This document shows, piece after piece, positions 1-27,037 of a DNA stretch of 27,037 nucleotides. The DNA is taken from positions 1-27,037 of IMG/VR virus record IMGVR_UViG_3300030943_000792; one strand, written 5' to 3'. The position numbers and the translations under genes are program-made. Position 1 is the stretch's first letter. Each line of letters opens with the position of its first letter. The DNA comes from a virus. The notes beneath the pieces are model-generated. The model was given only the letters and a program-made list of their open reading frames with translations. It did no database searches and was not told the DNA's origin.

Positions 1-165
1 GCCGCTCACTGTGCAGTAGCTCACCGTGCCGCCGCTCACTGTGCAGTAGCTCACCGTGCCGCCGCTCACTGTGCAGTAGCTCACCGTGCCGCCGCTCACT
101 GTGCAGTCGCTCACCGTGCAGCCGCTCACCGTGCAGCCGCTCACCTTGCAGCCGCCCACCGTGCA
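1..165. repeat. 15-bp tandem repeat (30-bp higher-order unit) inside a pentapeptide-repeat gene
   Basis: Eleven consecutive 15-bp units fill this stretch. Positions 1-30, 31-60 and 61-90 are identical 30-bp pairs of units; 91-120 differs at two positions, and the units from 121 to 165 are more diverged. There are no spacers, so this is not CRISPR. Read on the minus strand in the frame of the gene ending here, each unit encodes one five-residue repeat of the type C/G-T-V-S-x. The array continues past the left edge. Near-identity at the DNA level suggests recent expansion by slippage or unequal recombination. Confidence 0.9.
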
Positions 166-312
166 GTAGCGGATTATTATTCCGTATGGGAGATTTTCAC
201 CGGAAATCTCATATTCTACAATTTCCGCACGCTTCCCTTTTGTGGGATCTGCTATCCATTTGGCGTGCTCTTCGAGTATTGCTGTCAGTTCGTTCTTGCT
301 CATCTTTTTCAT
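1..312 (-). CDS. Pentapeptide-repeat protein, partial (C-terminus off the left edge)
   Basis: The frame starts at ATG 312, behind an AAGGAGG Shine-Dalgarno (317-323, 4-nt spacing), and stays open to base 1, giving 104 visible residues. The N-terminal ~25 residues (MKKMSKNELTAILEEHAKW, then a PTKGKRAE-like segment) resemble the helical leader seen in front of many phage and bacterial pentapeptide-repeat proteins (K-x-E-L-x-x-I-L-E-x-H-x-x-W, then KRA). From about residue 50 to the edge the sequence is repeats of five: CTVGG, CKVSG, CTVSG, CTVSD, GTVSY and so on. The central position is Val instead of the usual Leu/Phe, and small or polar Cys/Gly/Thr take the A-D/N positions. Such repeats form right-handed quadrilateral beta-helices. 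Known members include DNA-mimic gyrase protectors, but most have no assigned role and none is inferred here. It is last in a three-gene minus-strand operon, 35 bp after the stop of its upstream neighbour. Confidence 0.75.
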   Translation of the reverse strand, partial: MKKMSKNELTAILEEHAKWIADPTKGKRAEIVEYEISGENLPYGIIIRYCTVGGCKVSGCTVSGCTVSDCTVSGGTVSYCTVSGGTVSYCTVSGGTVSYCTVSG

Positions 313-347
313 GGTGCCTCCTTTCAATACAACGGTTGGTTGGTGCG

Positions 348-9112: not shown

Positions 9113-9772
9113 ATGGCAAACACAAATACTCCGTACATTGCGAAGCCAGCAGCGTCACTCGCCAATCCGATCACGACTGCTGTTGTCTTTCAGCAAACCT
9201 CTTCCCCCATCGCTACCGTTGCAGCGACGCAGACCGCCAAGGCTGTTTTCGTCAAATACAATGGGTTTTCTCAGTATGGGGTTGGCGTATCGAACAACGT
9301 TGACTTGGCTCGCATTCGTGTAACGGCTGCTGGACGAGCTACGGGTGGAACGAATGTTAACTTCACTCCCTCTCTTTTGATCGCTCCTGCTGCTGCCAAT
9401 ACCGGAATCTCGCTTACCCTGGCAACGAATACGACCGTCTTCAGTCCGACTGCAATGGCGTTCAACTCTGCCAGCGGAAATTGGGTTATCACGGCTGAAT
9501 TGCTTTGGGATCCGATCTCCGGACAGATCAATGGCCTATCCTCGGGTTACGGGGGCGCTACCACTCAGACCACCACGGCTGTTACGGCTATCACCCCTCT
9601 CACTGGATATACTCAGTCACCGACCGTTTCGAGCCAGTCCTATACCACTGCAGTAACGATTCCAGCGCCAACCGGCGAAATGGTTCTTTACTTCGGAGTT
9701 GCTGGTCTGTTCTCGACTACCAACGCGGGAAACATTGCCTATCTCGATCTGCTTCAGGTAGACGAGCTGTAA
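9113..9772 (+). CDS. Structural protein, possible head decoration, 219 aa
   Basis: An AAAGGAGA site lies directly before ATG 9113, ten bases after the capsid stop. The product is rich in Ala, Thr, Ser, Val and Gly, has no cysteine, and reads as beta strands throughout (AKAVFVKYNGFSQYGVGV, then NWVITAELLWDPISGQI, then GEMVLYFGVAGLFS). This is the profile of small virion surface proteins. I do not recognise a family. It shares composition, position and Shine-Dalgarno style (GGAGACC) with the following gene and with the capsid gene, so strong co-expression is likely. The head role is inferred from position between the capsid protein and a terminator. Confidence 0.6.
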   Translation: MANTNTPYIAKPAASLANPITTAVVFQQTSSPIATVAATQTAKAVFVKYNGFSQYGVGVSNNVDLARIRVTAAGRATGGTNVNFTPSLLIAPAAANTGISLTLATNTTVFSPTAMAFNSASGNWVITAELLWDPISGQINGLSSGYGGATTQTTTAVTAITPLTGYTQSPTVSSQSYTTAVTIPAPTGEMVLYFGVAGLFSTTNAGNIAYLDLLQVDEL

Positions 9773-9782
9773 GGAGACCATC

Positions 9783-10241
9783 ATGCCAAGCGCAGGAACG
9801 ATTCAACCGAACTCGAAGCTGTTGGCCTCCGGTACAGCACTTGCAACCGGGAATACTGCTTCATTCACTATGCCCTACGCTGATGCCTATCGCCTTATCT
9901 TGGTGATTGGCACGGTTTCAGGCACAAACCCAACTTTTGATGCTGTTCTCCAAGATTCGCCTGATGGTGGAACCACATGGGTCAACCTGCCCTTGCGGTT
10001 TACCCAGATGACGGCTACTGGAACGGCTGCAACTAACCCGTACATCATTTTCAAGCCTGTATCTATCTCTGATGCGGCTTCTGCTGGTGTAACGGCGGCA
10101 ACTGGCGGAGCAACTGCTACCAATACGCCAATCAACGTAAAAAATGTGCGGTTGGCTTACACTGTTGGCGGGACTTCTACTCCAACATTCCCGTTCAGCC
10201 TGTACGCCAATACCATCACCCGTGGTCAGATTGGCCTCTAA
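9783..10241 (+). CDS. Structural protein, possible head decoration, 152 aa
   Basis: AAGGAGACC precedes ATG 9783 at a good distance, ten bases after the previous stop. The product is all-beta in appearance, without cysteine. The pattern 'YRLILVIGTVSGTNPTFDAVL QDSPDGGTTW', split here for length, resembles the 'l.v...vsg..ptl...lq.S.DggtTW' layout often seen in small phage structural proteins that form a jelly-roll or Ig-like surface domain. The C-terminus (VRLAYTVGGTST, then PFSLYANTITRGQIGL) continues the strand pattern. It is the last gene before the terminator at 10254, closing the head block. The exact role is unknown. Confidence 0.6.
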   Translation: MPSAGTIQPNSKLLASGTALATGNTASFTMPYADAYRLILVIGTVSGTNPTFDAVLQDSPDGGTTWVNLPLRFTQMTATGTAATNPYIIFKPVSISDAASAGVTAATGGATATNTPINVKNVRLAYTVGGTSTPTFPFSLYANTITRGQIGL

Positions 10242-10253
10242 CCGTATCTAGAT

Positions 10254-10287
10254 CGCAAAAGCCTCTCTTCAGCGGGAGGCTTTTGCG
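10254..10287 (+). terminator. Intrinsic terminator, 12-bp stem
   Basis: CGCAAAAGCCTC (10254-10265) pairs perfectly with GAGGCTTTTGCG (10276-10287) around a 10-nt loop. The GC core (GCCTC/GAGGC) flanked by AAAA and TTTT gives the classic A-tract/hairpin/T-tract shape, which works in both directions. It begins 12 bases after the stop of the last head gene and marks the end of the highly expressed capsid block. Confidence 0.85.
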
Positions 10288-10301
10288 TTAGAATGGTGTG
10301 T

Positions 10302-10865
10302 ATGAGCAGTCCACAGGCAATCGACGGAATAAAGCTAAAAGAGCAAGCTGAGCAGATACTCATTGAAGCGGACAGAGAGAAGCATAGGAATGCCGCTGAT
10401 TCGGCTTTGGCTAAGCATAGAGCTACCGTAGAGGGTAAGGATGGGTGTTTCCTTACGACATATGCTTCGGCGCAGCTAGGAAGGCCACTGGCGCGGAAAG
10501 TACTTATTGAGCGCCTGTCAAGAATGAACCCTAACCTTGTTTTTGAGCAAAGCAAGAACTTCCCAAGCATCGGAGCTGTATACGTACTTGACCCGACTGC
10601 AAATTTGAATGATCCTGATGAGCGCTGCCGTGGGCGTCGTCATATCGTCGGTATGGAATGGACTGGCCTTTCCCCTGAATTTACTATCCGCAAAATCGGG
10701 AACGATGAATGGGGAAAGTTGAAGATGATTGGACAGGTTCGCGGTTGGCGCACAATACTTTCTCGCCTCATTCATGAAAGACTGATAGGCGTAGCAGAGG
10801 CAGAGCGTGTATTCTCAATTGCAAAGGGGCGAGAGTCCCAAAGATGGTACGAGGAGATTAACTGA
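10302..10865 (+). CDS. Hypothetical protein after the head block, 187 aa
   Basis: I do not recognise a family. Two starts are possible, ATG 10293 and ATG 10302, and neither has a Shine-Dalgarno. The first lies only 5 bases beyond the terminator hairpin. A -10-like TAGAAT (10289-10294) would place a transcription start at about 10301, so a leaderless message beginning with ATG 10302 is conceivable. The N-terminal ~50 residues are a charged helix (IKLKEQAEQILIEADREKHR). The middle contains VLIERLSRMNPNLVFEQS, then VYVLDPTANLNDPDERCRGR, and the C-terminus has another helix pair (GWRTILSRLIHERLIGVAEAE). It looks cytoplasmic and soluble. One-base overlap with the next gene. Confidence 0.6.
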   Translation: MSSPQAIDGIKLKEQAEQILIEADREKHRNAADSALAKHRATVEGKDGCFLTTYASAQLGRPLARKVLIERLSRMNPNLVFEQSKNFPSIGAVYVLDPTANLNDPDERCRGRRHIVGMEWTGLSPEFTIRKIGNDEWGKLKMIGQVRGWRTILSRLIHERLIGVAEAERVFSIAKGRESQRWYEEIN

Positions 10866-12413: not shown

Positions 12414-13031
12414 ATGTCAGTAACGGTAACGGTAAATGTGGCATCTCTTGCCGGTGGAACTAGTCCAGGGGCATACGTTCTTGTAACTCTGCTCAATTGC
12501 GGGTCATCTCCGTCTGTTGTAAATACCTCCACTCCGGTACCGATTACGCAGAAGTTTTACCCGTATAACGGTACGGTATCCTGCACTTTATACGACAACA
12601 TAACGCAGATTGCCTGCGAAGGGAATATGCTGTCGTATTATTCGTTCTCTCTTGTGAGCGGTGGTGTGACGACCTTCATCAAGAATGTCGAATTGCCTCC
12701 AGGGACGTTCAATCTTGCCAATCTTGCCAATGTGACTACTCCCCCCTGGCAGGCTGGAGTAATTCAGGGACCGCAGGGAATAGCCGGGCCTACTGGAGCG
12801 GCTGGAGGAACTCCATTTTATGTGCAGCTTGTTGGCACAAAAGACGGCGTAAACAAGATATTCTCGTTGCCATTTTCAAATACTCCTTCGCTTTGGGTAG
12901 TTGTGCAAAACACTGTGATCGTAAGCCCATTTCTAACAACTCCATATGGGTATACGACTCTTAATAATGTTGTTACATTCAACACGGCTCCAGAATCAAC
13001 CGATGAGCTTGAATCTTTCGGGGTCTACTAG
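12414..13031 (+). CDS. Tail or neck protein with beta-sandwich N-terminus and short collagen-like linker, 205 aa
   Basis: GGAGGAAGT lies just before ATG 12414. Residues ~1-105 read as a beta-sandwich of the kind found in phage upper-collar and fibre proteins. That type alternates strands, a 'DN.tqI.C.gn..sYysFsl' segment and a 'v.LPpGtfnL' strand. Residues 119-130 are a short Gly-x-y run (GPQGIAGPTGAA), a mini collagen-like linker often used for trimerisation. The C-terminal ~70 residues follow the 'DGVNKIFSLPFSNTPSLWVVVQ...' layout of a widespread small phage tail domain that ends in '..t.it.ntaP...D.le...vY'. Probably a trimeric tail appendage or neck protein. Three-base gap to the next gene. 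Confidence 0.6.
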   Translation: MSVTVTVNVASLAGGTSPGAYVLVTLLNCGSSPSVVNTSTPVPITQKFYPYNGTVSCTLYDNITQIACEGNMLSYYSFSLVSGGVTTFIKNVELPPGTFNLANLANVTTPPWQAGVIQGPQGIAGPTGAAGGTPFYVQLVGTKDGVNKIFSLPFSNTPSLWVVVQNTVIVSPFLTTPYGYTTLNNVVTFNTAPESTDELESFGVY

Positions 13032-16330: not shown

Positions 16331-16947
16331 TGGTGAGTTTTCTGAAGTTCCCAGACAATTCGCAACTTTCCACCACAGACGATGCGCGCCTATCGCGAAT
16401 AGAGGCCACTCTTCCATCCAAGGTTCACGGGAATACGACGTACTCTAACTCCTCCTTGGCCGTCCCCTCGACTGGATCTGTTACTTCCTTGGGGACGATT
16501 GCTCCTACTGGGATTACGGCAACTGGATCTACATTCGCTTTTACGGTAGAAGGGTATTTTGCATTTACCTCTGATGGGAATTCGATAAAAATTTACTGGG
16601 ATGGCACAAACGGCTCCAAGCTGATGAAGATCCTTAGGGCAGATGGATCAAATTTTTCTATCGCGGCTGGGAGTAAGACAATTGGCGGTCTTACAGCAAA
16701 TACGCAGTATGGATTCGCAGCTTTTGTGGCAGTCGCTCAGCCAAACCACCTGTCTTTTGCCAAGGGTAATAAAGGAACGCCAAAGTTTGCCTTCTCCCCT
16801 ACAGCTACGGCAGAACAAAAATCGACAGCTAAACGTACTTTGAGACTTACGACAAATGAGCGCATCACAGAAGGATTCATCTACTTTACGGCAAATGCGG
16901 GAGCCTCTGGGCTAGGCACAGGAACATATGCAGGACAGAATCAATGA
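16330..16947 (+). CDS. Tail-associated beta-rich protein, 205 aa
   Basis: The ATG shares one base with the stop of the propeller gene (TAATGG). The product starts with a short helix (DDARLSRIEATLP), followed by a Thr/Ser/Gly-rich all-beta body. The segment 'FTVEGYFAFTSDGNSIKIYWD' (split by function) and 'GGLTANTQYGFAAFV' is fibronectin type III-like in layout: the latter resembles the L-x-P/A-x-T-x-Y strand that precedes the end of such domains. The C-terminal ~40 residues are a Thr-rich strand pair. No cysteine. Likely a small tail appendage or fibre-anchor protein. The call rests on composition and position between two tail genes. Confidence 0.55.
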   Translation: MVSFLKFPDNSQLSTTDDARLSRIEATLPSKVHGNTTYSNSSLAVPSTGSVTSLGTIAPTGITATGSTFAFTVEGYFAFTSDGNSIKIYWDGTNGSKLMKILRADGSNFSIAAGSKTIGGLTANTQYGFAAFVAVAQPNHLSFAKGNKGTPKFAFSPTATAEQKSTAKRTLRLTTNERITEGFIYFTANAGASGLGTGTYAGQNQ

Positions 16948-17342
16948 GAAATCATATTTATGTCAGGCCGTTAAGGTTGTACGATGAAGAGGATAAGGCT
17001 GCTTTTGTGTCAGCAGCAGACGCAAGCGGGAAAGAGTTCCCAAGGTTTGTATTCACTTTGCCGACCACTCGCATCATGGTTGCAGAAATGGGGAGCGAGA
17101 TTGTCATGTATCAGCCGCAATTCGTTTCTCTAAACTTTGGGTCACTGATACCTAATGGGAAGCAGCCGGATACGCTCATGGCGTCTGCTCAGCATCAGCT
17201 CTTAGCCGCAGCTTATACGAGAGCACATTCAGAAGGGCTTGCAGACATATTTACGCTAAGCAATAACGCGCAGACAAGGAAATTAGCATTGCGACATGGG
17301 TTTATCGAGCGCCTGGACGCTATGAGATTGGAGATACGATGA
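16944..17342 (+). CDS. GNAT-fold-like protein, possibly catalytically degenerate, 132 aa
   Basis: ATGA overlap with the upstream gene and AGGA ~7 bases before set the start. GNAT enzymes transfer acetyl groups from acetyl-CoA. Residues ~86-130 match the C-terminal half of that fold: a long helix (LMASAQHQLLAAAYTRAHSE), the strand DIFTLSNN, then A-x-x-R-K-L-A-L-R-H-G-F-I-E-R and a last strand (AMRLEI). The N-terminal half has a plausible sheet (IYVRPLR, RIMVAEMGSEIVMYQPQFVS). However, the acetyl-CoA pyrophosphate loop (R/Q-x-x-G-x-G/A) is not visible before the long helix, so activity is doubtful. It may be a structural or modifying virion protein. It sits in the middle of tail genes with ATGA overlaps on both sides. 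Confidence 0.55.
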   Translation: MRNHIYVRPLRLYDEEDKAAFVSAADASGKEFPRFVFTLPTTRIMVAEMGSEIVMYQPQFVSLNFGSLIPNGKQPDTLMASAQHQLLAAAYTRAHSEGLADIFTLSNNAQTRKLALRHGFIERLDAMRLEIR

Positions 17343-17968
17343 GCCAAGATACATCCTCACAAAAAGGGCAGCTAAACACGCAGAATCAATTGCAGTCCCA
17401 GGCTCAGAATTCGGAGAATCAGCTTTTGCAGCAAAACAACGCTGCTCTATCTCCATACCTTACAGGGAATAAGGGGTTTACTCCTGAACAGCTTGCGGCA
17501 TTAAACTCTCAGGCTCTAGGGCAGAATGCATCAAAATACAATCAAGCTACACAGCAGACAAACCAGCAGCTTGCCGCGCGCGGAGAAGGTCTAGGGAATA
17601 TGCCTAGCTCCGGAGTGGCTGCTACCGGATACGGAAACTTGCAGGCTGCAAAGGCGGGAGACTTGGCCGACTCTCTTAGGACAGTCACTCTCAATAATGC
17701 GCAACAGGCCTTAGCCAACAAGTTCAATGCTGCTTCAGTTTTGAGCGGAAATGCACAAACATATGCGGGAAATGTAGGCACATACGGATCTGGGGCGTCA
17801 AATGCTCTAGGGGATCTGACTCAGGCGCAATCAAACACATGGCAATCTCAATTTGGGAAGGCGGCTGGATCGGCTGTAGGTGGCGCAGCAGGAGCATTTA
17901 CGGGAGGTTTCGGAGCTTCGGCGGCTGGGCAACTAAGTAAGTCTCTTGGATGGGGGGGGAGCAAATGA
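17339..17968 (+). CDS. Probable internal virion (DNA-ejection) protein with C-terminal glycine-zipper segment, 209 aa
   Basis: ATGA overlap with the previous gene. The product is rich in Gln, Asn, Ala, Ser and Gly, has no cysteine, and begins with a polar helical stretch (QLNTQNQLQSQAQNSENQLL). The C-terminal ~45 residues contain a Gly/Ala zipper (AAGSAVGGAAGAFTGGFG) of the type that packs helices in membranes. This combination of a polar helical body and a glycine-zipper tail is common in small podovirus ejection proteins that insert into the host envelope. The position immediately before two larger Ala/Gln-rich proteins supports that. The sequence is low-complexity, so a family name is not possible by eye. 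Confidence 0.55.
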   Translation: MSQDTSSQKGQLNTQNQLQSQAQNSENQLLQQNNAALSPYLTGNKGFTPEQLAALNSQALGQNASKYNQATQQTNQQLAARGEGLGNMPSSGVAATGYGNLQAAKAGDLADSLRTVTLNNAQQALANKFNAASVLSGNAQTYAGNVGTYGSGASNALGDLTQAQSNTWQSQFGKAAGSAVGGAAGAFTGGFGASAAGQLSKSLGWGGSK

Positions 17969-19500
17969 GTACTACGCCAACTATTACCGATCAACCCATC
18001 ACCGCGCAGGACCCTCGCGTTGCGCAGATTCTCGCTTTGATTCGGGCGAAGAGTGGAAATGTTGCAGCCCCAGAAACCTCGTCTGTTTCTGTTGATACCA
18101 CAATCCCACAGCAAGTTGCTCCTCCAAGCCCAAGTATTCCCGGAATGCCTTCGCTTGCATCTCAGGTTGCCACTAGCCCTACCTCGGCACCTTCGGATAC
18201 GCAGAGCGTACCGCAGATGCCAGTAGCCCAAAATCCGCAGCTTCCACAGGCGCAGGCTCCTAATGTAACCTTGGCGAAGGCTGGCCCGATTAAGTCATTC
18301 CTACAAAGCCTTGTCTCTGGGCTAGGTACAGCCACGTATGCAGGCTCTCAGGCGGCTTTGCAGCATCTTGGTATGCCCACGGACTACGAGAAGCAGCAAG
18401 ATGCTTTAAAGATCGGCTTGCAACAGCAACAGCAGAACTCCACGGAAGCTCTCCGGAAGGCACAGCAAGAGCTTTATGGGGGGAAACTGGAGCAACTCCA
18501 ATCTCAGTTGACCCCTACGCAGATACCAAATGACGCTTCAAAATATGGAGCATTCGCGGGGACTACTCTCCCTCTCAGTGCAGCTCAAGCAGTCATGCAA
18601 AAGATGGAAGCCCTTGCTAATGCAAAAGACATAGCTTTAGGGAAGAATGAGACGACGCTAAAGGGGAAAGAGATTCAGTATGGACCAGATTCTTATCTTA
18701 GAAAGGGTGTACGTTCGGTAGATGGGAGAATACAGCTTTACGATAAAGCCACTGGAGAAAAACTTAAGGACATGGGGGAGGATAGCTCTATTATCGCTGG
18801 CGTAGCGAGAGCTAATGCCTTTGCTCGTGCCCGCGCCCAATATACCCCCTTCTCTACCACGGACGAGAACGGCTCCCCAACGGTCGTTTCCAATATGCAA
18901 GCCCTTCTGAGCGGGGCACCAAAACAGAGCTTTACTGAAGCGCGTAATCTAACCTCTGACATGGTTGGAGTCAAACAGTATCAAGATATTTTAGACCAGA
19001 AGATTTCTCCAAATCTGTCTGTGCTCAACGACCCTACACAGCGTGCTGTAATTGCGCACACCTTATCTGAAGGCAAGAATGCATCCCCTGGAGCTATTCA
19101 GGCGCTCATTACCAGCGGACTGCAAGAAGGGGCTTTAAGCAAAGAGGGGGCTGCGCTTGCTGCTGGCATCATGCAGGCACGTGAGTTTGGATCTGTTGCG
19201 CGTAAATACGGCGGCAATATGAACGGTACAGAGGGGCTGATGGACCGCATCATATCCAATCAGGCTTCTCCTCTTCACGCGGAACAATTGAATAGAGATT
19301 TGATCCAGAATGATCGCGCATTTACTGCCAAGGCTTTGAACTCCATCACCACCTTGATGAGCAATACTAAGCGCACAGCAGCAAAAGGATCAACAAATAC
19401 ACCTAGCGATAATTCGTCGCCACAGCGCCCTTCTGGGGTTCCTGCAAATGCGCAATATATAACCGATCCTAAAACCGGGAAGAAGGGATGGGCTTGGTAA
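17965..19500 (+). CDS. Probable internal virion (DNA-ejection) protein, 511 aa
   Basis: ATG 17965 is preferred over an in-frame ATG 15 bases upstream because it overlaps the previous stop as ATGA and follows GGGGGGAGC. The first ~100 residues are Pro/Ser/Thr/Gln-rich and disordered. A short hydrophobic helix (SFLQSLVSGLGTATYAGS) follows at ~115-135, then a Gln-rich coiled coil (KIGLQQQQQNSTEALRKAQQ). A larger helical body has GVARANAFARARAQ and SEGKNASPGAIQALITSG segments. No cysteine in the whole chain. This resembles the medium-sized member of podovirus ejection-protein sets. Function is inferred from composition and order, not from a family motif. Confidence 0.5.
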   Translation: MSTTPTITDQPITAQDPRVAQILALIRAKSGNVAAPETSSVSVDTTIPQQVAPPSPSIPGMPSLASQVATSPTSAPSDTQSVPQMPVAQNPQLPQAQAPNVTLAKAGPIKSFLQSLVSGLGTATYAGSQAALQHLGMPTDYEKQQDALKIGLQQQQQNSTEALRKAQQELYGGKLEQLQSQLTPTQIPNDASKYGAFAGTTLPLSAAQAVMQKMEALANAKDIALGKNETTLKGKEIQYGPDSYLRKGVRSVDGRIQLYDKATGEKLKDMGEDSSIIAGVARANAFARARAQYTPFSTTDENGSPTVVSNMQALLSGAPKQSFTEARNLTSDMVGVKQYQDILDQKISPNLSVLNDPTQRAVIAHTLSEGKNASPGAIQALITSGLQEGALSKEGAALAAGIMQAREFGSVARKYGGNMNGTEGLMDRIISNQASPLHAEQLNRDLIQNDRAFTAKALNSITTLMSNTKRTAAKGSTNTPSDNSSPQRPSGVPANAQYITDPKTGKKGWAW

Positions 19501-21308
19501 TGGGTGGATTCTCACATTTCGTTCCCGATGAAAGCCAACCATCATATTCCCACTTTGTCCCGGACAATAGCGGCCCTGTGCCGCCGAACATTACCGACAA
19601 TCCAAAGGGTGAGGGAACCTATGCAATGTGGAACGATAGGGGCCAGAAACTCGGCATCCCTTATTCGCAGGTTCCGGCAGCTAAACAGAAAGGATACAAG
19701 TTCGACACAAATCCAGATCAGTCTGGATCACTTCCAGCAGTACGATACGTGAAAGATGCCGTATATTCCGGGAACAAAGGTCAGCCAAGCAACGCAAGTC
19801 TATATTGGGAGGGTTTAACCAATCCTATTGGAAGTGGAGCGAATCAGCAAGGAGTATATGGAGGAATAAAACAGGTAGGTGGTCAAGCAATCAAGACTAT
19901 GGCGCAGCCCATAATGCATCCTATTGACACGCTCGGCGGAATGGCAAAGATCGCTGGAGATGCCATTACAGGTGGCTCACAAGCAGCGGGAGAGGATATT
20001 ATTGGTCCTATTATCCAGCAATACATTCAAGACAAGCAGCAGGGCGGTCATGCGCTGGCGCTAGAGAATCTAGCTGGCAATCTAGCTGGACAGGTCGAAG
20101 GAGGAAGGGCAATCGGTGGAGCAGTATCTAAAACGGTTCCTGTTGTAAATGACATAGGAAGCGCGATACGAACGGCTGCTATTGGTAATCCCGATGTGCC
20201 TCTCACGCGTGGATTGGGAATTACCGCCCGGACAAAGACAGGGCTTTCTTCACTACAAGCATCTGGAGAAGCATCTCCTCTAGATGTTTCTCTTGAAGAT
20301 GCCCAGGGAGCTCGACCTTATGGGAAGGGGGCAAAAAATCTTGAAGACCTCCAAGCAAAACTAACTGATGCAAGAAAAGAAATCAATGCCCCGCTCAATA
20401 CCGCTCTTGACGCAGTAGGGGGTAGAACAATTCAAGGACCGGATGGTCCTGCTACCATCAGTGATCTTGAGTCCCAACGCGCACAGCTTTCCGCGCAACT
20501 CAGGGGTTTGCAGCAGAAAGACCCTCTCGCTATCCAGACTGCTTTGCAAAAAGGCATGGGGGAAGCTGATCTAAAAGCTAGATACGATGCAATCGTGGAT
20601 GCGATGACACCGCATCTTGATTCTACTGGCATCGATTCTCGTCTCATCCGCCAGCAGGATGCTCAGGTGGCGTCTATTTATTCCAAGATTGCAGGTCGCA
20701 CAACCCTACCCGAAGCGACTAAGCCTTATGGGTTTGCTCGTGTTGGTGACCTTGCAAAATTTGGCAGTGGAAGCGGCATTGATCTTTTAGCTCCAGCAAA
20801 AACTCTAGGTAGCATCACGAAAGACATTGCAGCGGGACGGTATTGGAGCGAAAGGCCAACTGATGTCAATCTCCGCGAGGGATTCCGTTTGGCTGGCCCT
20901 AAGCCTGATTTCGGTACTCCATCGCCCCAATTCATACAGAAGCCTGCGCAACTGACGAGCGGTACTATTGAGTTGCAATCTCCTAGCAGTCCACAGGTAG
21001 GACCATCTTCCCCCGCAATTAACATTGCACCTGATACACGAGCAGCAAGGCTTGGACTCTTGCTTAAGGCCCCTCCGATTGAGTTGCCTGGAACGGTTGA
21101 AGTAACTCCACAACCGCCATCCTATGCAGGAACAACACAGACTCGGCTCGGAAGACTCCTTACTTCTAGCACGGATGAGCAGAATATCCCGCTGTCCGAA
21201 AAGGTGGATATTTTCCCTAATCAGTTGCCGGGCTCTAAACGTTCCGGAGGGACAAAACCAACTATAAGTCCGAAGTTGGCTGAAATCCTAAAAAGGAAGG
21301 GAAGATGA
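19500..21308 (+). CDS. Probable large internal virion (DNA-ejection) protein, 602 aa
   Basis: Two in-frame starts exist (19488 and 19500). 19500 is chosen because it overlaps the previous stop as TAATG, like most neighbours. The N-terminus carries a short duplicated motif, SHFVPD at residues 5-10 and 17-22, in an otherwise disordered leader. The middle has Gly/Ala-rich helical segments (ALENLAGNLAGQVEGGRAIGG) and a coiled coil (KNLEDLQAKLTDARKEI). The C-terminal third is Pro/Ser-rich with a basic end (EILKRKGR). No cysteine anywhere and no peptidase or muramidase motif that I can recognise. Likely the largest of the three ejection proteins. ATGA overlap with the next gene. Confidence 0.5.
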   Translation: MGGFSHFVPDESQPSYSHFVPDNSGPVPPNITDNPKGEGTYAMWNDRGQKLGIPYSQVPAAKQKGYKFDTNPDQSGSLPAVRYVKDAVYSGNKGQPSNASLYWEGLTNPIGSGANQQGVYGGIKQVGGQAIKTMAQPIMHPIDTLGGMAKIAGDAITGGSQAAGEDIIGPIIQQYIQDKQQGGHALALENLAGNLAGQVEGGRAIGGAVSKTVPVVNDIGSAIRTAAIGNPDVPLTRGLGITARTKTGLSSLQASGEASPLDVSLEDAQGARPYGKGAKNLEDLQAKLTDARKEINAPLNTALDAVGGRTIQGPDGPATISDLESQRAQLSAQLRGLQQKDPLAIQTALQKGMGEADLKARYDAIVDAMTPHLDSTGIDSRLIRQQDAQVASIYSKIAGRTTLPEATKPYGFARVGDLAKFGSGSGIDLLAPAKTLGSITKDIAAGRYWSERPTDVNLREGFRLAGPKPDFGTPSPQFIQKPAQLTSGTIELQSPSSPQVGPSSPAINIAPDTRAARLGLLLKAPPIELPGTVEVTPQPPSYAGTTQTRLGRLLTSSTDEQNIPLSEKVDIFPNQLPGSKRSGGTKPTISPKLAEILKRKGR

Positions 21309-21513: not shown

Positions 21514-21843
21514 ATGCAGAAGGACAATCTTCGCAAGCTGGCAATTACAACCGCTCTTACGTCGGGAGACAATACGCTTGTGGGTGGAGGACAGCTTGGT
21601 ACCGGGATTGGATCTATCCGAGTATGGCAGGTAGAGCTTGAATCGTCCGGGGCTGAGGTAATCGCTCCCAAATCTGGAACAACTGCTATCCCTGGAAAGA
21701 TTATTCTCACGGACGCTGGATCTACGGTAGTGCTTCAGGCTACTGGCGCACCTTGGATGGAATGCCTCCCTGGACAAAGCCTAGTATGGAATCTGACCAC
21801 AGGTGGCACACTCACAGGGGCTATTTACTATTCGCTGGCTTAG
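21514..21843 (+). CDS. Small beta-rich virion protein, 109 aa
   Basis: TAGGAGG lies 5 bases before ATG 21514. The product has the layout of a widespread ~100-residue phage surface domain: an N-terminal 'T.LtsGDNTLVGGGQLGTGI' strand, 'IRVWQVELESSGAEVIAPKSG', 'IPGKIILTDAGSTVVLQATG', then 'W.eC.PGqSLVWNLTTGGTLTGAIYYS'. This matches the pattern '..i.v....l.ssga.~v.f.sG...i.G...l...g......g.~~~~~gesL.l~~s.~g.v.G.~~Y' found in decoration or adhesion proteins. It has one Cys and no signal peptide, unlike the four proteins after it. A possible capsid decoration or tail-tip protein; family name not certain. Confidence 0.55.
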   Translation: MQKDNLRKLAITTALTSGDNTLVGGGQLGTGIGSIRVWQVELESSGAEVIAPKSGTTAIPGKIILTDAGSTVVLQATGAPWMECLPGQSLVWNLTTGGTLTGAIYYSLA

Positions 21844-21853
21844 GAGATTGAAC

Positions 21854-22693
21854 ATGAGAAAGGTTTTTGCCATTGTTGCGCTTATTGTGTTTGGATCGAT
21901 AGCAAATGCACAGATTGATCTAAATTCTAAGCGTACGGCTCCACAGGTGAAGGGAATCGTCCAGCCAGTTAACGGAGGTCTAGGACTCGATACTTCCTCC
22001 TCAACAGGGTGCCCAAAAGTAACTGCTGGAGTGTGGAGCATCAGCCCATCAAACTGCACTGGATCTAGCGTAGCGTTTACGATCAACAGCTTTACAGGAT
22101 GCAATGGATCTTTGGAGCTTGGCGCAACCGTGGTAAATCCGGTTTGCACGGCTACTTATTCCACAACTCCCACAAGCGCAACGATTACAAATACGGATGG
22201 AATCAGTTCACCTACGAACATGATTTCTCCATTTACAAGTACCACGATTACAGGAAGTTTCGTACATACTTCGATTGCGACTACCACTATGACACTTACG
22301 GCGGTTGGAACATCCACGCAAACGGCTACCCAGGCATACACATGGAACCCGCGTATATTCGCTGGCGTTGGAGCGTCTGGGGCAACATCAACCGTTACAG
22401 CTTCAGGGACTAATGCCGTTCTATCGACTTCCGACGTTATCCCAAGCATCCAGATCGGTCCCGAATCGGTAGGGCAGACTATTGGGTCTTTCTCCCCATC
22501 TGGGCAGGTTATTTACCTTCTTCTAACTGGGGGGAGCCATACATTTATTGACGTTGGCACAGGGTTCCCGTTTGCGTTCAACGCTCCTTTAACTGTTTCG
22601 TTTGTAAATGCTAACGGAGTGACAATTACCATGTATTTGTACGCTAGCACCAATAGTTTGACTGGGACATTCACCCCGAAGATTGTGAGCTAA
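21854..22693 (+). CDS. Signal-peptide-bearing beta-rich protein of the fibre-like cluster, 279 aa
   Basis: ATG 21854 is chosen because TAGGAG sits 9 bases upstream and because it gives a textbook Sec signal peptide (MRKVFAIVALIVFGSIANA, then Q; AxA cleavage site after residue 19). A longer frame from 21803 would overlap the previous gene. The mature ~260 residues are Thr/Ser/Gly-rich and all beta in appearance, with four cysteines (an even number) within the first ~110 residues. The middle repeats short Thr-rich strands (TSATITNTDGISS, TSTTITGSFVHTS), and the C-terminus ends in LTVSFVNANGVTITMYLYAS. I do not recognise a family. It is the first of four consecutive exported proteins, with a 1-bp gap to the next. 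Confidence 0.7.
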   Translation: MRKVFAIVALIVFGSIANAQIDLNSKRTAPQVKGIVQPVNGGLGLDTSSSTGCPKVTAGVWSISPSNCTGSSVAFTINSFTGCNGSLELGATVVNPVCTATYSTTPTSATITNTDGISSPTNMISPFTSTTITGSFVHTSIATTTMTLTAVGTSTQTATQAYTWNPRIFAGVGASGATSTVTASGTNAVLSTSDVIPSIQIGPESVGQTIGSFSPSGQVIYLLLTGGSHTFIDVGTGFPFAFNAPLTVSFVNANGVTITMYLYASTNSLTGTFTPKIVS

Positions 22694-22694
22694 A

Positions 22695-23561
22695 ATGCGC
22701 AGATTATTTCAAATCGTATTTTTGGCATCTAGTATTGCATATGCCCAGATCCCCGTACCACAGATAGGTCTTACGGGCAATATCGGGTGCCAGGGGTTCC
22801 CATGTGTCAATAGCGGAACTCTGGTTATGTCGCTAGATGTAGATCACTACATGACCGTGCAAGAGACTTCCGCTCAGTACATTAAGGTGACGAGCAGTGT
22901 ATCTCTTACGGCTACCAGGAACCTAGTAGCGCCATCTGGAAAATTCAACTTCACAATACAGAATGCCACTACTGGAGGTCAGTCTATCCAGATCATAGGA
23001 TCTAGCGGGACTGGCATAACGATTACCAATGGATCTACGGTAGGTGTTTGGAACGATGGTACCAACTTTGTGCAAATTGGCGTCGCGGGTGGGTCTGGAA
23101 CTGTAAATAGCGGAGCTACTGGGCAAGTGGCATATTATCCTTCCAGTGGGTCAGCAGTAAGCGGGACAAGCACTCCCTCTGTGACTACGATTTCCGCAGG
23201 GCATGTCATCGGCAACAGCTCCACTCCTACGGCGGCTGTAGGCGCAGCAGCAGGTTCGGGAGCGACGATTTCAATGACTTGCTCAGGATCGGCTATTTCT
23301 TGCCATTCCACAGATGCGGCTGGCGGGTTCTTTCTAGCAACAGGAACCGGAGCTACGACGGGGGTTGTGGCCACTATCACATGGAACGTGGCATATACGG
23401 CCAGCCCTAACTGCTCCCTGTCGTTTATTGGAATGGCTGTACCAACTGGATTAAATGGAGCACTTAGTACAGGAACGAGCACAACTGGAATGACCATATA
23501 CACCAACACTGCCTTGACATCGAGTAGTAGCTACACGATTGGGTATATGTGCATCCAATGA
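22695..23561 (+). CDS. Signal-peptide-bearing fibre-like protein, 288 aa (shares N-terminal module with next gene)
   Basis: Starts with a Sec signal peptide (MRRLFQIVFLASSIAYA, cleavage after residue 17, Q at +1). Residues ~22-125 form a module that recurs in the next gene. It includes a conserved C-QGFP-C pair (C32, C37), 'ETSAQYIKVTSSVSLTATRN' and 'NATTGGQSIQIIG', ending in 'VWNDGTNF'. Residues ~205-288 match the common C-terminal head of phage fibres: 'ATGTGATTGVVATITWNVAY' with 'PNCSLSF' and a final 'SSSYTIGYMCIQ'. Six cysteines in total, an even number. Fibre heads of this type usually bind host receptors. A signal peptide on such a protein is odd, since virion proteins normally assemble in the cytoplasm. 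No Shine-Dalgarno is obvious; translational coupling with the previous stop (1-bp gap) is likely. Confidence 0.75.
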   Translation: MRRLFQIVFLASSIAYAQIPVPQIGLTGNIGCQGFPCVNSGTLVMSLDVDHYMTVQETSAQYIKVTSSVSLTATRNLVAPSGKFNFTIQNATTGGQSIQIIGSSGTGITITNGSTVGVWNDGTNFVQIGVAGGSGTVNSGATGQVAYYPSSGSAVSGTSTPSVTTISAGHVIGNSSTPTAAVGAAAGSGATISMTCSGSAISCHSTDAAGGFFLATGTGATTGVVATITWNVAYTASPNCSLSFIGMAVPTGLNGALSTGTSTTGMTIYTNTALTSSSSYTIGYMCIQ

Positions 23562-23568
23562 GGAGAAA

Positions 23569-25341
23569 ATGAGAATACTGGCATTAATATCGATTTTCGT
23601 GTCACTGTCATTTACCGCAGTAGGACAGATAAGTTCTCCGCAGATCCCTCTCACTGGGAATATCGGATGCCAGGGGTTCCCATGCCTAAACAATGGAACT
23701 CTCATTATGGCAACTGATGCAGATCGCACGATGACGGCAGTGGAGACAAGCGCTTTTTACATCAAGGTAACCAGCTCAGTATCATTGACCACCACGCGCA
23801 AATTGATCTCTCCCGCCGGGAGATTCTTTTTTACCATAGAGAATGCTACCACTGGTGGGCAGAGCATACAGGTCATAGGGCAGTCAGGAACGGGCGTTAC
23901 CATCCCTAATGGGGGAATGGTAAATGTGTGGAATGACGGAACGAACTATATTTCAACCCTGTCATACGGGCTAGCTGGATCGCCAAATATAACCGTAGGG
24001 GCTGTAAATGCCAGCAGCCTTACAGCTAGTGGGCTGTCTGTAGGAAACTGCGTACAAGTCACCACTGGAGGATTGCTTACCACCACAGGGAGCGCTTGTG
24101 GAACTAGCAGCGGAACCATTACTGCTACTGGGACTCCAGCTTCAGGGAATTTAGCTTTTTTCAGCGGGGCAACATCGATCACATCTGGCAACCTGAGCGG
24201 AGATATGACAACGTCCGGAACAGGCGTTACAACTTTAGCGACAGTCAGCACTACATATGGGGCTTGTGGTTCTGCGTCAACATCTTGCGTGCCAACGACA
24301 AATGCTAAAGGACTTGTTACATCGCAGACCGCACCTAGTATTCAGATAGCAGAATCGCAGGTTACGAACCTGACAACAGACCTCGCTGCAAAACAGGCGA
24401 CGGGGAACTACATTACGGCGCTGACTGGAGATGTGACGGCAGGAGGACCAGGCTCAGCAGCGGCAACCGTGGTGCACGCTCCGGCCAGTGGCATCACAGG
24501 AACAACTCTTGCATCAAATGTGGTTGGTTCATCGCTTACATCTGTCAGTACATCTCCTGGCGTTACTACAGGGGTTTGGAATGCTGGAAATGTTACAGCG
24601 CCAACCATTACCGCAACGGGAGACCCATCGACAGGGAATTTGCGCGCAACCAGCACAACTGGCGGTGATCTGCGATTAACAAATACTTCTGTCACTAATG
24701 GGACATGGGATATTGGGAACATACCCAGCGCATTAACTTACAATGGCCACACTTATGCGGCTGGAGTAGGTCTGCAATTATTTAATACATATAGCGGCGT
24801 AGATGCCTTAGTTGTGGATACCACTAATGCGGCATTTAATATCCCCTTGTATGTAAATGGTAATATTTCTGTTTCTAGCTGCACTGGGTGCGTACAGGTA
24901 TCTCATATCCCATCAATATTTACCACAACTTCAACATCTTATGTAAATACCGGCATATCGCTTTCAATTCCTTCAGTAGCAGCAGCAAAGGCATATATGG
25001 GGAGATGTAATATAGGATGGGGGAATGCCAGCTCATCGGCTACTACATATTTTGCCTATAGCCTTACCAATGCCCCTATAGATATAGTTCTTATGAATTC
25101 ATTTATGACCACCAATACTATCAGCAGTCAAACGTCATACTGGAGCGATTTAGGCACACAGCCTTCTCATATAATAAATAGCGCTTCTCCTGGTGCCACG
25201 GCAGATTATGTTGTTTCTTTTGATTTTACATTATATGAAGCAGCAAATACCAGCAACACGCTAAATATACAGATAAAAACAAGCGATGCTTCTTATGCAG
25301 CACATGCGTCAGCAGGAAGTGCTTGTACATTGTATAACTAG
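23569..25341 (+). CDS. Signal-peptide-bearing modular tail-fibre-like protein, 590 aa
   Basis: ATG 23569 follows AGGAG and overlaps nothing; it gives a Sec signal peptide (MRILALISIFVSLSFTAVG, Q at +1). A 30-base longer in-frame start inside the previous gene is less likely. Residues ~22-125 repeat the module of the previous gene (C34, C39; ETSAFYIKVTSS; NATTGGQSIQVIG; VWNDGTN). Residues ~190-320 are a classic tail-fibre shaft (GNLSGDMTTSGTGVTTLA, then IAESQVTNLTTDLAAK, then NYITALTGDVTAGGPGSAAA). Residues ~450-590 are a separate C-terminal module (FTTTSTSYVNTGISLSIPS, then YMGRCNIGW, then NTLNIQIKTSDASYAAH) that recurs in the next gene. Ten cysteines in the chain, an even number. Probably an exported or surface-displayed adhesin or fibre. 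Confidence 0.78.
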   Translation: MRILALISIFVSLSFTAVGQISSPQIPLTGNIGCQGFPCLNNGTLIMATDADRTMTAVETSAFYIKVTSSVSLTTTRKLISPAGRFFFTIENATTGGQSIQVIGQSGTGVTIPNGGMVNVWNDGTNYISTLSYGLAGSPNITVGAVNASSLTASGLSVGNCVQVTTGGLLTTTGSACGTSSGTITATGTPASGNLAFFSGATSITSGNLSGDMTTSGTGVTTLATVSTTYGACGSASTSCVPTTNAKGLVTSQTAPSIQIAESQVTNLTTDLAAKQATGNYITALTGDVTAGGPGSAAATVVHAPASGITGTTLASNVVGSSLTSVSTSPGVTTGVWNAGNVTAPTITATGDPSTGNLRATSTTGGDLRLTNTSVTNGTWDIGNIPSALTYNGHTYAAGVGLQLFNTYSGVDALVVDTTNAAFNIPLYVNGNISVSSCTGCVQVSHIPSIFTTTSTSYVNTGISLSIPSVAAAKAYMGRCNIGWGNASSSATTYFAYSLTNAPIDIVLMNSFMTTNTISSQTSYWSDLGTQPSHIINSASPGATADYVVSFDFTLYEAANTSNTLNIQIKTSDASYAAHASAGSACTLYN

Positions 25342-25377
25342 GTAATAATTGTTTTAGGAAAATAGCGAGGAGAGCAG

Positions 25378-27037
25378 ATGAAAATAATTATTACGACAGT
25401 GGCGGGTCTTGTATTAGCGATCACGTGTGCACATGCCCAGATCATTAACCCGAAGCCAGCCTCAAGTATCATCACAGGATCTTCACTCCCCGCAACGTGC
25501 AACGTGAATCCAACGCAGATTTACAGCGTTGTTTCGGGAGGGGTTACTTCATCTTATTATTGCTCGGCTACTAATACTTGGTCAGCATTTGGAAGTGGCA
25601 GTGGTGGCATGAAGACGCGCACATGTACAACAGGGGATTCTCTCGACACGTATTCTGGCTATCAGTCGATATGCAATTCGTCTTCACCTGTGGCTCTTAC
25701 CATCTCTGCGCCAAGCTCTTTGCCTGTCGGCTATGTCGGTATAATTTCAAATCGAGGTACTGGCACTGTTACGCTTACTCTCACATCGGGGGGCGTCTAT
25801 GTAAATGGCGTTTACTCTGCCACGCTGACTGTCGGGCCGGATCAATCGGCGAATATTGCGCTCGACCCGGACGGCACTGATTTTACTTCGCAGAGATCCT
25901 TGATTGCAGGAACAAACGTAACGTTAGGCTCTGATGGGTCAATCAATGCGTCTGGCGGAGGGAGCGGAACAAGCTACCTATACGGGACGGCAAGTTCAAC
26001 CGTCACCGCTGCTGGCAATGTAGAGGTACAGGGCGGCATCAATACGGGCGGTGGCCCGGCAGGTCTTACCGAGCGTTGGCAGCAATTCAGCTTTACAGGG
26101 ACATTCACACAGTGGGGGTTGGTTTGCCAATCCACTTCGGCTGCAAATACCGTTACTAATTGCCCTGCCAGCCCCTACGTGGTGGTAGGAGTTGCCGTTT
26201 ATCAGCCTACTGCCACCACTGTGATGGTGGCAATGGAGGGGAGTACAATCCCGATTAATGCATCAGCAGCCGTTACGGTTGGGCATACTGCATGTGGAGG
26301 TACGACGGTTGGGTATATCACAGATTCGGGGGCATCATCTGCTTGCCAGCTTCAGCAGACTGTGGGTATCGTGCAGGCGATCACGGGGACGTGGCAAGCG
26401 TTCCCAGACGGTACGGCCTTCCCTACCCTTTCGAGCACTCTTCCTCTTGTTCTACTGAAAAACATCAACCCCACTTTTAATATGGGGTCTTCATATTGCT
26501 TGACAAAATACAGCACATCATTGTCAGGGTTGATTACTTGCTCCGGGACCCAAGATAACGGCACATCGGCTATTTCTGGAGAGCCTCTATATACACTACA
26601 GGGACACGCATTAGACATTTCTACCACCACTGTAGCGATTACAGGGACGAGTTTCACAACGACCGGGTATTACTTTCCTGCGACAACCACAATTGCAGCA
26701 AAATCCAGCTATATCGGACGCTGCCACATTGCTTGGCAACAAGCAACGGCAGTCGGAACAGTGCAGTTTGCGATTGCAACGAGCGCTGCGCCGACTCACC
26801 TGTTTGTAACCTCAAGCACAAATCCGCAAACGCTTTCAGGCGCTACCCCGTATACCACGTCGGACATTACGACGGCGACAACCACGGCAGTGACAGCGGC
26901 AATCACCCCGGGCACAATCAACACTACCTACTTCACCGATTTAGATGTAGACCTTAGTCAGTCCACAACGGCCAACACGTTGACACTATACGGCTTAACC
27001 AGTAGCGCGTCAGACGCTTTGAATATTCTGCCGGGGA
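25378..27037 (+). CDS. Signal-peptide-bearing fibre-like protein, partial (C-terminus off the right edge)
   Basis: GAGGAG lies 5 bases before ATG 25378, and the frame stays open for 553 codons to the end of the window. Residues 1-20 are a Sec signal peptide (MKIIITTVAGLVLAITCAHA, Q at +1). A small two-Cys segment follows ('LPATCNVNPTQIY...YYCSATNTW'), a pattern I associate with exported bacterial surface proteins. The long Thr/Ser/Gly-rich beta body contains 'VTLGSDGSINASGGGSGTSY' and 'TERWQQFSFTGTFTQWGLVC'. From residue ~415 onward the chain follows the C-terminal module of the previous gene: 'STTTVAITGTSFTTTGYYF', 'SSYIGRCHIAW', 'FTDLDVDLSQSTTANTLTL'. At least 11 mature cysteines are visible. 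A 36-bp gap separates it from the previous gene. Confidence 0.75.
   Translation, partial: MKIIITTVAGLVLAITCAHAQIINPKPASSIITGSSLPATCNVNPTQIYSVVSGGVTSSYYCSATNTWSAFGSGSGGMKTRTCTTGDSLDTYSGYQSICNSSSPVALTISAPSSLPVGYVGIISNRGTGTVTLTLTSGGVYVNGVYSATLTVGPDQSANIALDPDGTDFTSQRSLIAGTNVTLGSDGSINASGGGSGTSYLYGTASSTVTAAGNVEVQGGINTGGGPAGLTERWQQFSFTGTFTQWGLVCQSTSAANTVTNCPASPYVVVGVAVYQPTATTVMVAMEGSTIPINASAAVTVGHTACGGTTVGYITDSGASSACQLQQTVGIVQAITGTWQAFPDGTAFPTLSSTLPLVLLKNINPTFNMGSSYCLTKYSTSLSGLITCSGTQDNGTSAISGEPLYTLQGHALDISTTTVAITGTSFTTTGYYFPATTTIAAKSSYIGRCHIAWQQATAVGTVQFAIATSAAPTHLFVTSSTNPQTLSGATPYTTSDITTATTTAVTAAITPGTINTTYFTDLDVDLSQSTTANTLTLYGLTSSASDALNILPG

Follow-up and report, generated by a model that had tools for sequence, protein, structure and literature searches.

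Tail-fibre-like proteins of an uncultured tailed phage with predicted Sec signal peptides, paired cysteines and a possible route to the virion at lysis

By the textbook rule, tailed phages assemble fully in the cytoplasm, and a family of fibres rerouted through secretion and oxidation would, if true, break it. The question of whether such a family exists is raised by the IMG/VR record IMGVR_UViG_3300030943_000792, which we analysed over its whole length of 27,037 bases (the window), and in which a podophage-like late module is followed by four fibre genes, namely W1 (starting at 21854), W2 (22695), W3 (23569) and W4 (25378). A preliminary description had proposed that their products are exported and disulfide-bonded, to act outside the cell or to join virions after lysis. 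Here, we weigh, with the balance standing at about even, the proposal that these genes constitute a tail-fibre or tail-spike module whose products are Sec-exported and join the particles at or after lysis.

Signal peptides of the four fibre proteins

The n-, h- and c-region architecture of Sec signal peptides is present in all four proteins. A rule-based detector, which considers n-region charge, an uncharged hydrophobic core and a small-x-small site, gave them scores of 7.4-10.0: MRKVFAIVALIVFGSIANA in W1 (21854..21910; 9.96), MRRLFQIVFLASSIAYA in W2 (22695..22745; 7.73), MRILALISIFVSLSFTAVG in W3 (23569..23625; 7.40) and MKIIITTVAGLVLAITCAHA in W4 (25378..25437; 8.93), all on the + strand and each followed by Gln. 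All four start codons are ATG, supported by an upstream AGGAG in W1, by translational coupling in W2 and by an upstream GAGGAG in both W3 and W4; moreover, 22695 and 25378 are the first possible starts in their open reading frames, and the ribosome-binding site and gene position of W1 are kept in the related loci L014 and L003 despite diverged sequence. The four signal peptides of the preliminary description are thus borne out. As no in-frame alternative start with a good ribosome-binding site was found near and 3' of any of the four, a second, signal-less isoform looks unlikely.

Elsewhere in the window, on both strands and from any start codon, the detector scores never rose above 5.2. The detector was also applied to six relatives, five with exact repeats of 123-127 bases at their ends and the sixth with a long but inexact overlap. 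In these and the window together (seven records), a score of at least 7 was reached by 3 of 249 genes lying beyond the fibre cluster and by 12 of 20 within it, the latter on automatic start calls that lose some signals through wrong starts or a charged c-region. Because none of W1-W4 has a lipobox Cys after the cleavage site, where Gln is found instead, lipid-anchored display is unlikely.

A family of signal-bearing proteins in differing phages

About 18 other IMG/VR phage groups contain relatives of the fibre genes, and the capsid-tail modules of several of these groups differ considerably. The N-domain of W2 (22746..23090, + strand), defined in an alignment of 19 proteins (A4), comprises a QIPxPQIxLTGNIGCQGFPC leader with a CxxxxC pair. 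It recurs in the mature chain of W3 (23626..25338, + strand; 50% identity to W2 over 237 amino acids), which has a longer C-terminal part. All 22 proteins with this N-domain have at their start a signal peptide whose end immediately precedes QIPAPQI or one of its variants; 20 of the 22 pass the detector rule, and the two failures are due to one basic residue each near the cleavage site. The mean identity is 28% between signal peptides against 66% between mature N-domains, with the signal the lower in 78 of 78 pairs. Real signal peptides behave in this way, keeping their character while their letters drift.

Behind the conserved N-domain the chains vary from 218 to 2011 amino acids in length, as is usual for receptor-binding proteins. 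L008:4926, one more exported gene in its cluster, encodes a GDSL esterase domain (a GDSL match in L015 is weak), and L019 has a tail-spike-like stretch (phrog_3783). The same clusters also include signal-bearing, Cys-containing proteins from other families, namely L008:4926-6941 (the GDSL protein), L013:6942-9059, L014:14819-16048, L020:5146-7483, L028:11977-14076 and L029:5474-8856, and therefore whole operons of two to five exported proteins occur. In L024 a second exported N-domain gene (9720-9914 and 9898-10599) is apparently broken by a frameshift, the upstream first copy being intact.

Cysteine parity and the signal-less homologues

If these N-termini were cleaved and the mature chains oxidised, cysteines should come in pairs. 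A recount upheld the 4, 6 and 10 Cys given earlier for the complete proteins W1, W2 and W3, and the absence of Cys from the three ejection-like proteins upstream (17339..21308, + strand), which serve as a contrast set. Among all complete signal-bearing genes of at least 100 amino acids from twenty loci, collected automatically (n=44), the Cys number is even in 43 of 44 mature chains after predicted cleavage, against 30 of 44 precursors. In 13 precursors the Cys count of the signal peptide itself is odd, and the remainder is even in 13/13, although one of these, the lipoprotein L018:13355, has no further Cys and is to be discounted. As a control, we took genes from these phages that have at least two Cys and no signal peptide, and found 45 of 70 to be even; the probability of 43/44 against this baseline is ~1e-7, with the qualification that some chains are homologous and hence not fully independent, though their counts range widely. 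In a hand-checked list, 41 of 43 mature chains are even, with 2 to 46 Cys. Each of the 19 aligned proteins either has both Cys of the N-domain motif GCQGFPC or lacks both (19/19). These counts are most simply read as removal of the signals by cleavage, which would leave mature chains with paired Cys only.

A second line of evidence comes from homologues. The search with the A4 alignment found 245 relatives. Among them, about 60 more distant N-domain homologues from other viral contigs (hidden Markov model scores 53-72) have no signal peptide (0/60) and no Cys pair. Nearly all of these start with MATYxNNLRLKEIxTGDExGTWGTSTNTNLELI or a variant, a leader that is missing from all 22 exported members. 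In cultured Roseobacter, Synechococcus, Planktothrix and Pelagibacter phages the homologues bear the annotation tail fibre, tail spike or tail protein, and several metagenomic signal-less ones match PHROG tail-fibre families, such that homology supports the earlier label ‘fibre-like’. In the alignment, the signal peptide and the QIPAPQIxLTGNIGCQGFPC leader stand where the signal-less homologues have their first ~40 residues, and the core domain is common to both groups. This suggests that the change went from the conventional N-terminus to the signal peptide and leader.

The signal-like N-termini of the fibre proteins might instead be uncleaved hydrophobic segments that hold the fibres to the particle or the inner membrane, with the Cys oxidising after lysis, as may occur in Agrobacterium phage Milano, whose virion receptor-binding proteins have disulfides (PMC10811340). 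We consider this improbable, given that the parity becomes even only with the segment removed, that the small-x-small sites before Gln are conserved and the h-region sequence is not, and that signal-less homologues lack the Cys pairs. The dependence of evenness on signal removal, together with the pair-free state of the signal-less homologues, argues for cleavage and disulfide bonding. Hence, going by sequence, export with cleavage and disulfides is very probable, and what the preliminary description had inferred on this point gains strong support from the family-wide signal and the two lines of Cys evidence.

Are the exported fibres virion parts?

The W2 model is confident over residues ~21-110 (predicted local distance difference test, pLDDT, ~86-96), and the best Protein Data Bank (PDB) match of its N-domain is the tailspike gp83 of phage Solidus (Z 8.3 over 84 residues, 2.9 A), followed by a chaperone-substrate complex (Z 7.1), the Pa223 capsid spike (6.5), CBA120 TSP4 (6.5), T4 gp10 (5.2) and T4 gp9 (5.1). 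Phage attachment and spike domains thus predominate among the top matches, and a BFVD search with the same model returned many phage tail proteins. The C-terminal beta domain of W2 (23268..23558, + strand) has a low-confidence model. The mature chain of W1 (21911..22690, + strand; 260 amino acids, AlphaFold2 pLDDT 83) is modelled with a disordered start and two Ig-like beta domains, and its PDB matches, over model residues 52-147, are generic Ig-like with no closer family.

The C-terminal Ig-like domain of W1 was aligned across 17 distinct relatives, the window included. Twelve are predicted to be exported, of which ten have an FTGC-x14-C pair, one has other Cys in the domain and one has four Cys elsewhere. 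The other five lack a signal peptide, have 0-1 Cys in the whole protein, and are without the pair represented in W1 by Cys83 and Cys98 (22100-22102 and 22145-22147). Two of the five, L028 and L011, have a common T7-gp17-like N-terminus (phrog_1640/5510), which in L028 matches phage tail fibres; the remainder have N-termini of other types. Signal-less L025 has the same anchor domain as L030 (48% identity, z 13.6), which carries a signal peptide and extra Cys. Directly 3' of all five signal-less W1 homologues lies an exported N-domain gene. If the two products form one fibre, they could meet only after envelope breakage, and we infer that these five relatives are the most telling cases for post-lysis joining. 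Moreover, the export of W1 in 12 groups and not in 5, in the same place and with the same partner, suggests one role reached by two routes.

We accordingly envisage a mechanism in which Sec would export the W1-W4 precursors and signal peptidase I would cut each at its small-x-small site before Gln, with the mature chains then forming disulfides and trimers in the periplasm. Particles assembled in the cytoplasm would meet the fibres only at lysis, when the envelope breaks, and the fibres would join there, with W1 forming the base of the fibre and W2-W4 its distal parts, which would bind receptors or act as depolymerases. Addition of the tailspike to heads is known in phage P22. That fibres could be added once the cell has lysed is plausible, since the parts of a phage can come together in mixed extracts, as in T4 in vitro complementation (PMC9576892). 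Among the roles listed in the preliminary description, post-lysis joining fits best, and whether the exported fibres would become part of the virion stands for us near the midpoint between belief and doubt.

Several points weigh against this mechanism. Virion binding may have been lost with the exchange of the usual N-terminus for the leader, signal-less fibre-like proteins persist in the same genome (12414-13031 and 16330-16947), the Z values of the N-domain matches are middling, and the receptor-binding proteins of phage Milano can form disulfides without any described export (PMC10811340). On the tree of the W1 domain, all independent pairs of signal and Cys state go in the same direction or tie, with two to three pairs only, and this contrast alone cannot reach significance because there are about three signal switches.

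The main rival reading is that the proteins are exported and disulfide-bonded but detached from virions, serving as free enzymes or adhesins that degrade extracellular polysaccharide, coat the host surface, or occupy receptors against superinfection or the binding of progeny to debris. The loss of the usual N-terminus of the tail-fibre family, the GDSL and tail-spike-like modules in relatives, the signal-less fibre-like proteins, and the retention of a signal-less W1 in five relatives, joined in two cases to a virion anchor of T7 type, would all suit such free action. Yet the genes are located in the late virion operon, 3' of the ejection and tail genes, a trait of Caudoviricetes tail fibres and spikes, and the size and C-termini of the products vary as widely as in receptor-binding proteins. 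Neither a lipobox nor an outer-membrane anchor was seen, and the interchange of exported and signal-less W1 beside one partner also tells against it. We therefore hold free action to be a tentative alternative, less probable than assembly of the exported fibres onto particles at lysis.

Genomic context and host

The late module includes genes for a terminase with weak matches to many phage terminases, a portal (Pfam SU10_portal, PF23899; E 1.3e-30), a capsid-like protein, an adaptor-like protein with a weak SU10_adaptor match, a nozzle-like protein of 1098 amino acids with Ig repeats, the three ejection-like proteins, a 109-amino-acid protein and W1-W4. With this portal and terminase on the contig, exact end repeats in five related records, and phage tail fibres as homologues, an origin of W1-W4 as cellular secreted proteins, from a host fragment or host genes on the contig, is refuted by the contig contents and is very improbable, even though diderm surface proteins use such signals. 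A scan of genome contigs for cellular or prophage relatives gave one match, a spurious one to an unrelated, stop-containing translation.

The 109-amino-acid protein directly upstream of W1 (21514..21843, + strand) has no signal peptide and occupies the same place in L003/L014, L016 and L017; it is possibly a cytoplasmic neighbour or acceptor. A 205-amino-acid virion protein (12414..13031, + strand; phrog_11431 virion structural protein, E 0.005), fibre-like and without a signal peptide, contains a collagen-like GPQGIAGPTGAAGG stretch and is a candidate conventional appendage. This protein and the second signal-less fibre-like one tell against the notion that the exported proteins are the sole fibre candidates of the genome. 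The mature chain of W4 (25438..27036, + strand) is cut by the record end, past which the gene runs; its N-terminal region differs from that of W2/W3, and it has 12 Cys so far, one of them inside the signal peptide. It has no database match, and a protein scan of viral contigs returned no relatives of it. Pfam and PHROGs searches with W1-W4 gave no family, and no PHROG match to a T7 gp17-like N-terminal anchor. INPHARED DNA and protein searches with the tail region of the window, W1 and W3 gave no match, the signal-less homologues alone matching that database.

Other features of these phages include a Cys-rich protein with VSGCTVSG-type short repeats and no signal peptide at 1-327 (- strand) of the window, and another short-repeat protein at L047:6384-7235, with 47 Cys in 283 amino acids and likewise no signal peptide. 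Between the nozzle and ejection genes (16944-17342) lies a gene for ~131 amino acids, acetyltransferase-like by eye, with counterparts in the virion modules of L014:3247-3642, L016:957-1352, L019:3327-3722 and L030:3076-3477.

The tailed phages of this group are uncultured and for the most part of soil type. An AQ cleavage context, which is frequent among Acidobacteriota and Bacteroidota, hints at a host in one of these phyla. A tRNA search of the record found none. Small lipoproteins with an LAGC lipobox lie 3' of the fibre genes at L018:13355-13723 and L013:10985-11377; they are possibly Rz1-type spanins, in which case a diderm host would be indicated.

Implications and comparison with known systems

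We judge it slightly less likely than not that a lineage of tailed phages makes its receptor-binding fibres outside the cytoplasm, Sec-exported, cleaved and with periplasmic disulfides, and joins them at or after lysis. If it does, such phages would gain disulfide-stabilised adhesins, their infectivity would depend on host Sec and Dsb functions, and particles from mixed infections could acquire each other's fibres. If the proteins act free instead, tail fibres would have given rise to a new class of adhesin or depolymerase secreted by phages. Either way, annotation and host-range tools that treat signal-peptide proteins as non-virion would miss candidate receptor-binding proteins here.

The nearest known relatives are the MATYxNNLRLKEI family of Roseobacter phages CRP-901/902, Planktothrix phage Pag-Yong1, Synechococcus phage MinM2 and Pelagibacter phage HTVC023P (phrog_31104). 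The likeness lies in the core, SDADxTxT...YxKVTSSVSLTATRxL...ENATTGGQSI...G, and in modular C-termini; however, its known members have neither signal peptide nor Cys pair, and the window family has both. In L028 and L011 the C-terminal domain of W1 follows the N-terminal anchor of the T7 gp17-type fibre; these fusions are signal-less and Cys-free, whereas W1 of the window bears a signal peptide and lacks that anchor. With the attachment and branching domains of T4 gp10/gp9 and CBA120 TSP4, which are assembled in the cytoplasm and have no signal peptide, the N-domain is alike in fold (Z 5-6.5). Structural proteins with Sec signal peptides are found in filamentous phages, as the coat proteins pIII and pVIII, but those phages are membrane-assembled and extruded, unlike a tailed-phage module with an SU10-type portal and terminase. 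The superinfection-exclusion protein Llp of phage T5, which is exported and blocks receptor binding, is a small lipoprotein, whereas the window proteins have no lipobox and are 260-570 amino acids when mature.

The contractile tail of phage Milano has its sheath and baseplate locked by disulfides that involve the receptor-binding proteins. The likeness is in these disulfides, and the text of that paper has no mention of signal peptides or periplasm (PMC10811340). The target proteins of phage diversity-generating retroelements have no detectable signal peptides (PMC6199706). Among open-access papers we found no report of exported or signal-peptide-bearing tailed-phage fibres, in agreement with the preliminary description, which knew of no described system of this exact form. 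Thus, signal-bearing proteins of filamentous phages and disulfides in the receptor-binding proteins of Milano being already known, what would be new here is the rerouting of tail fibres through secretion.

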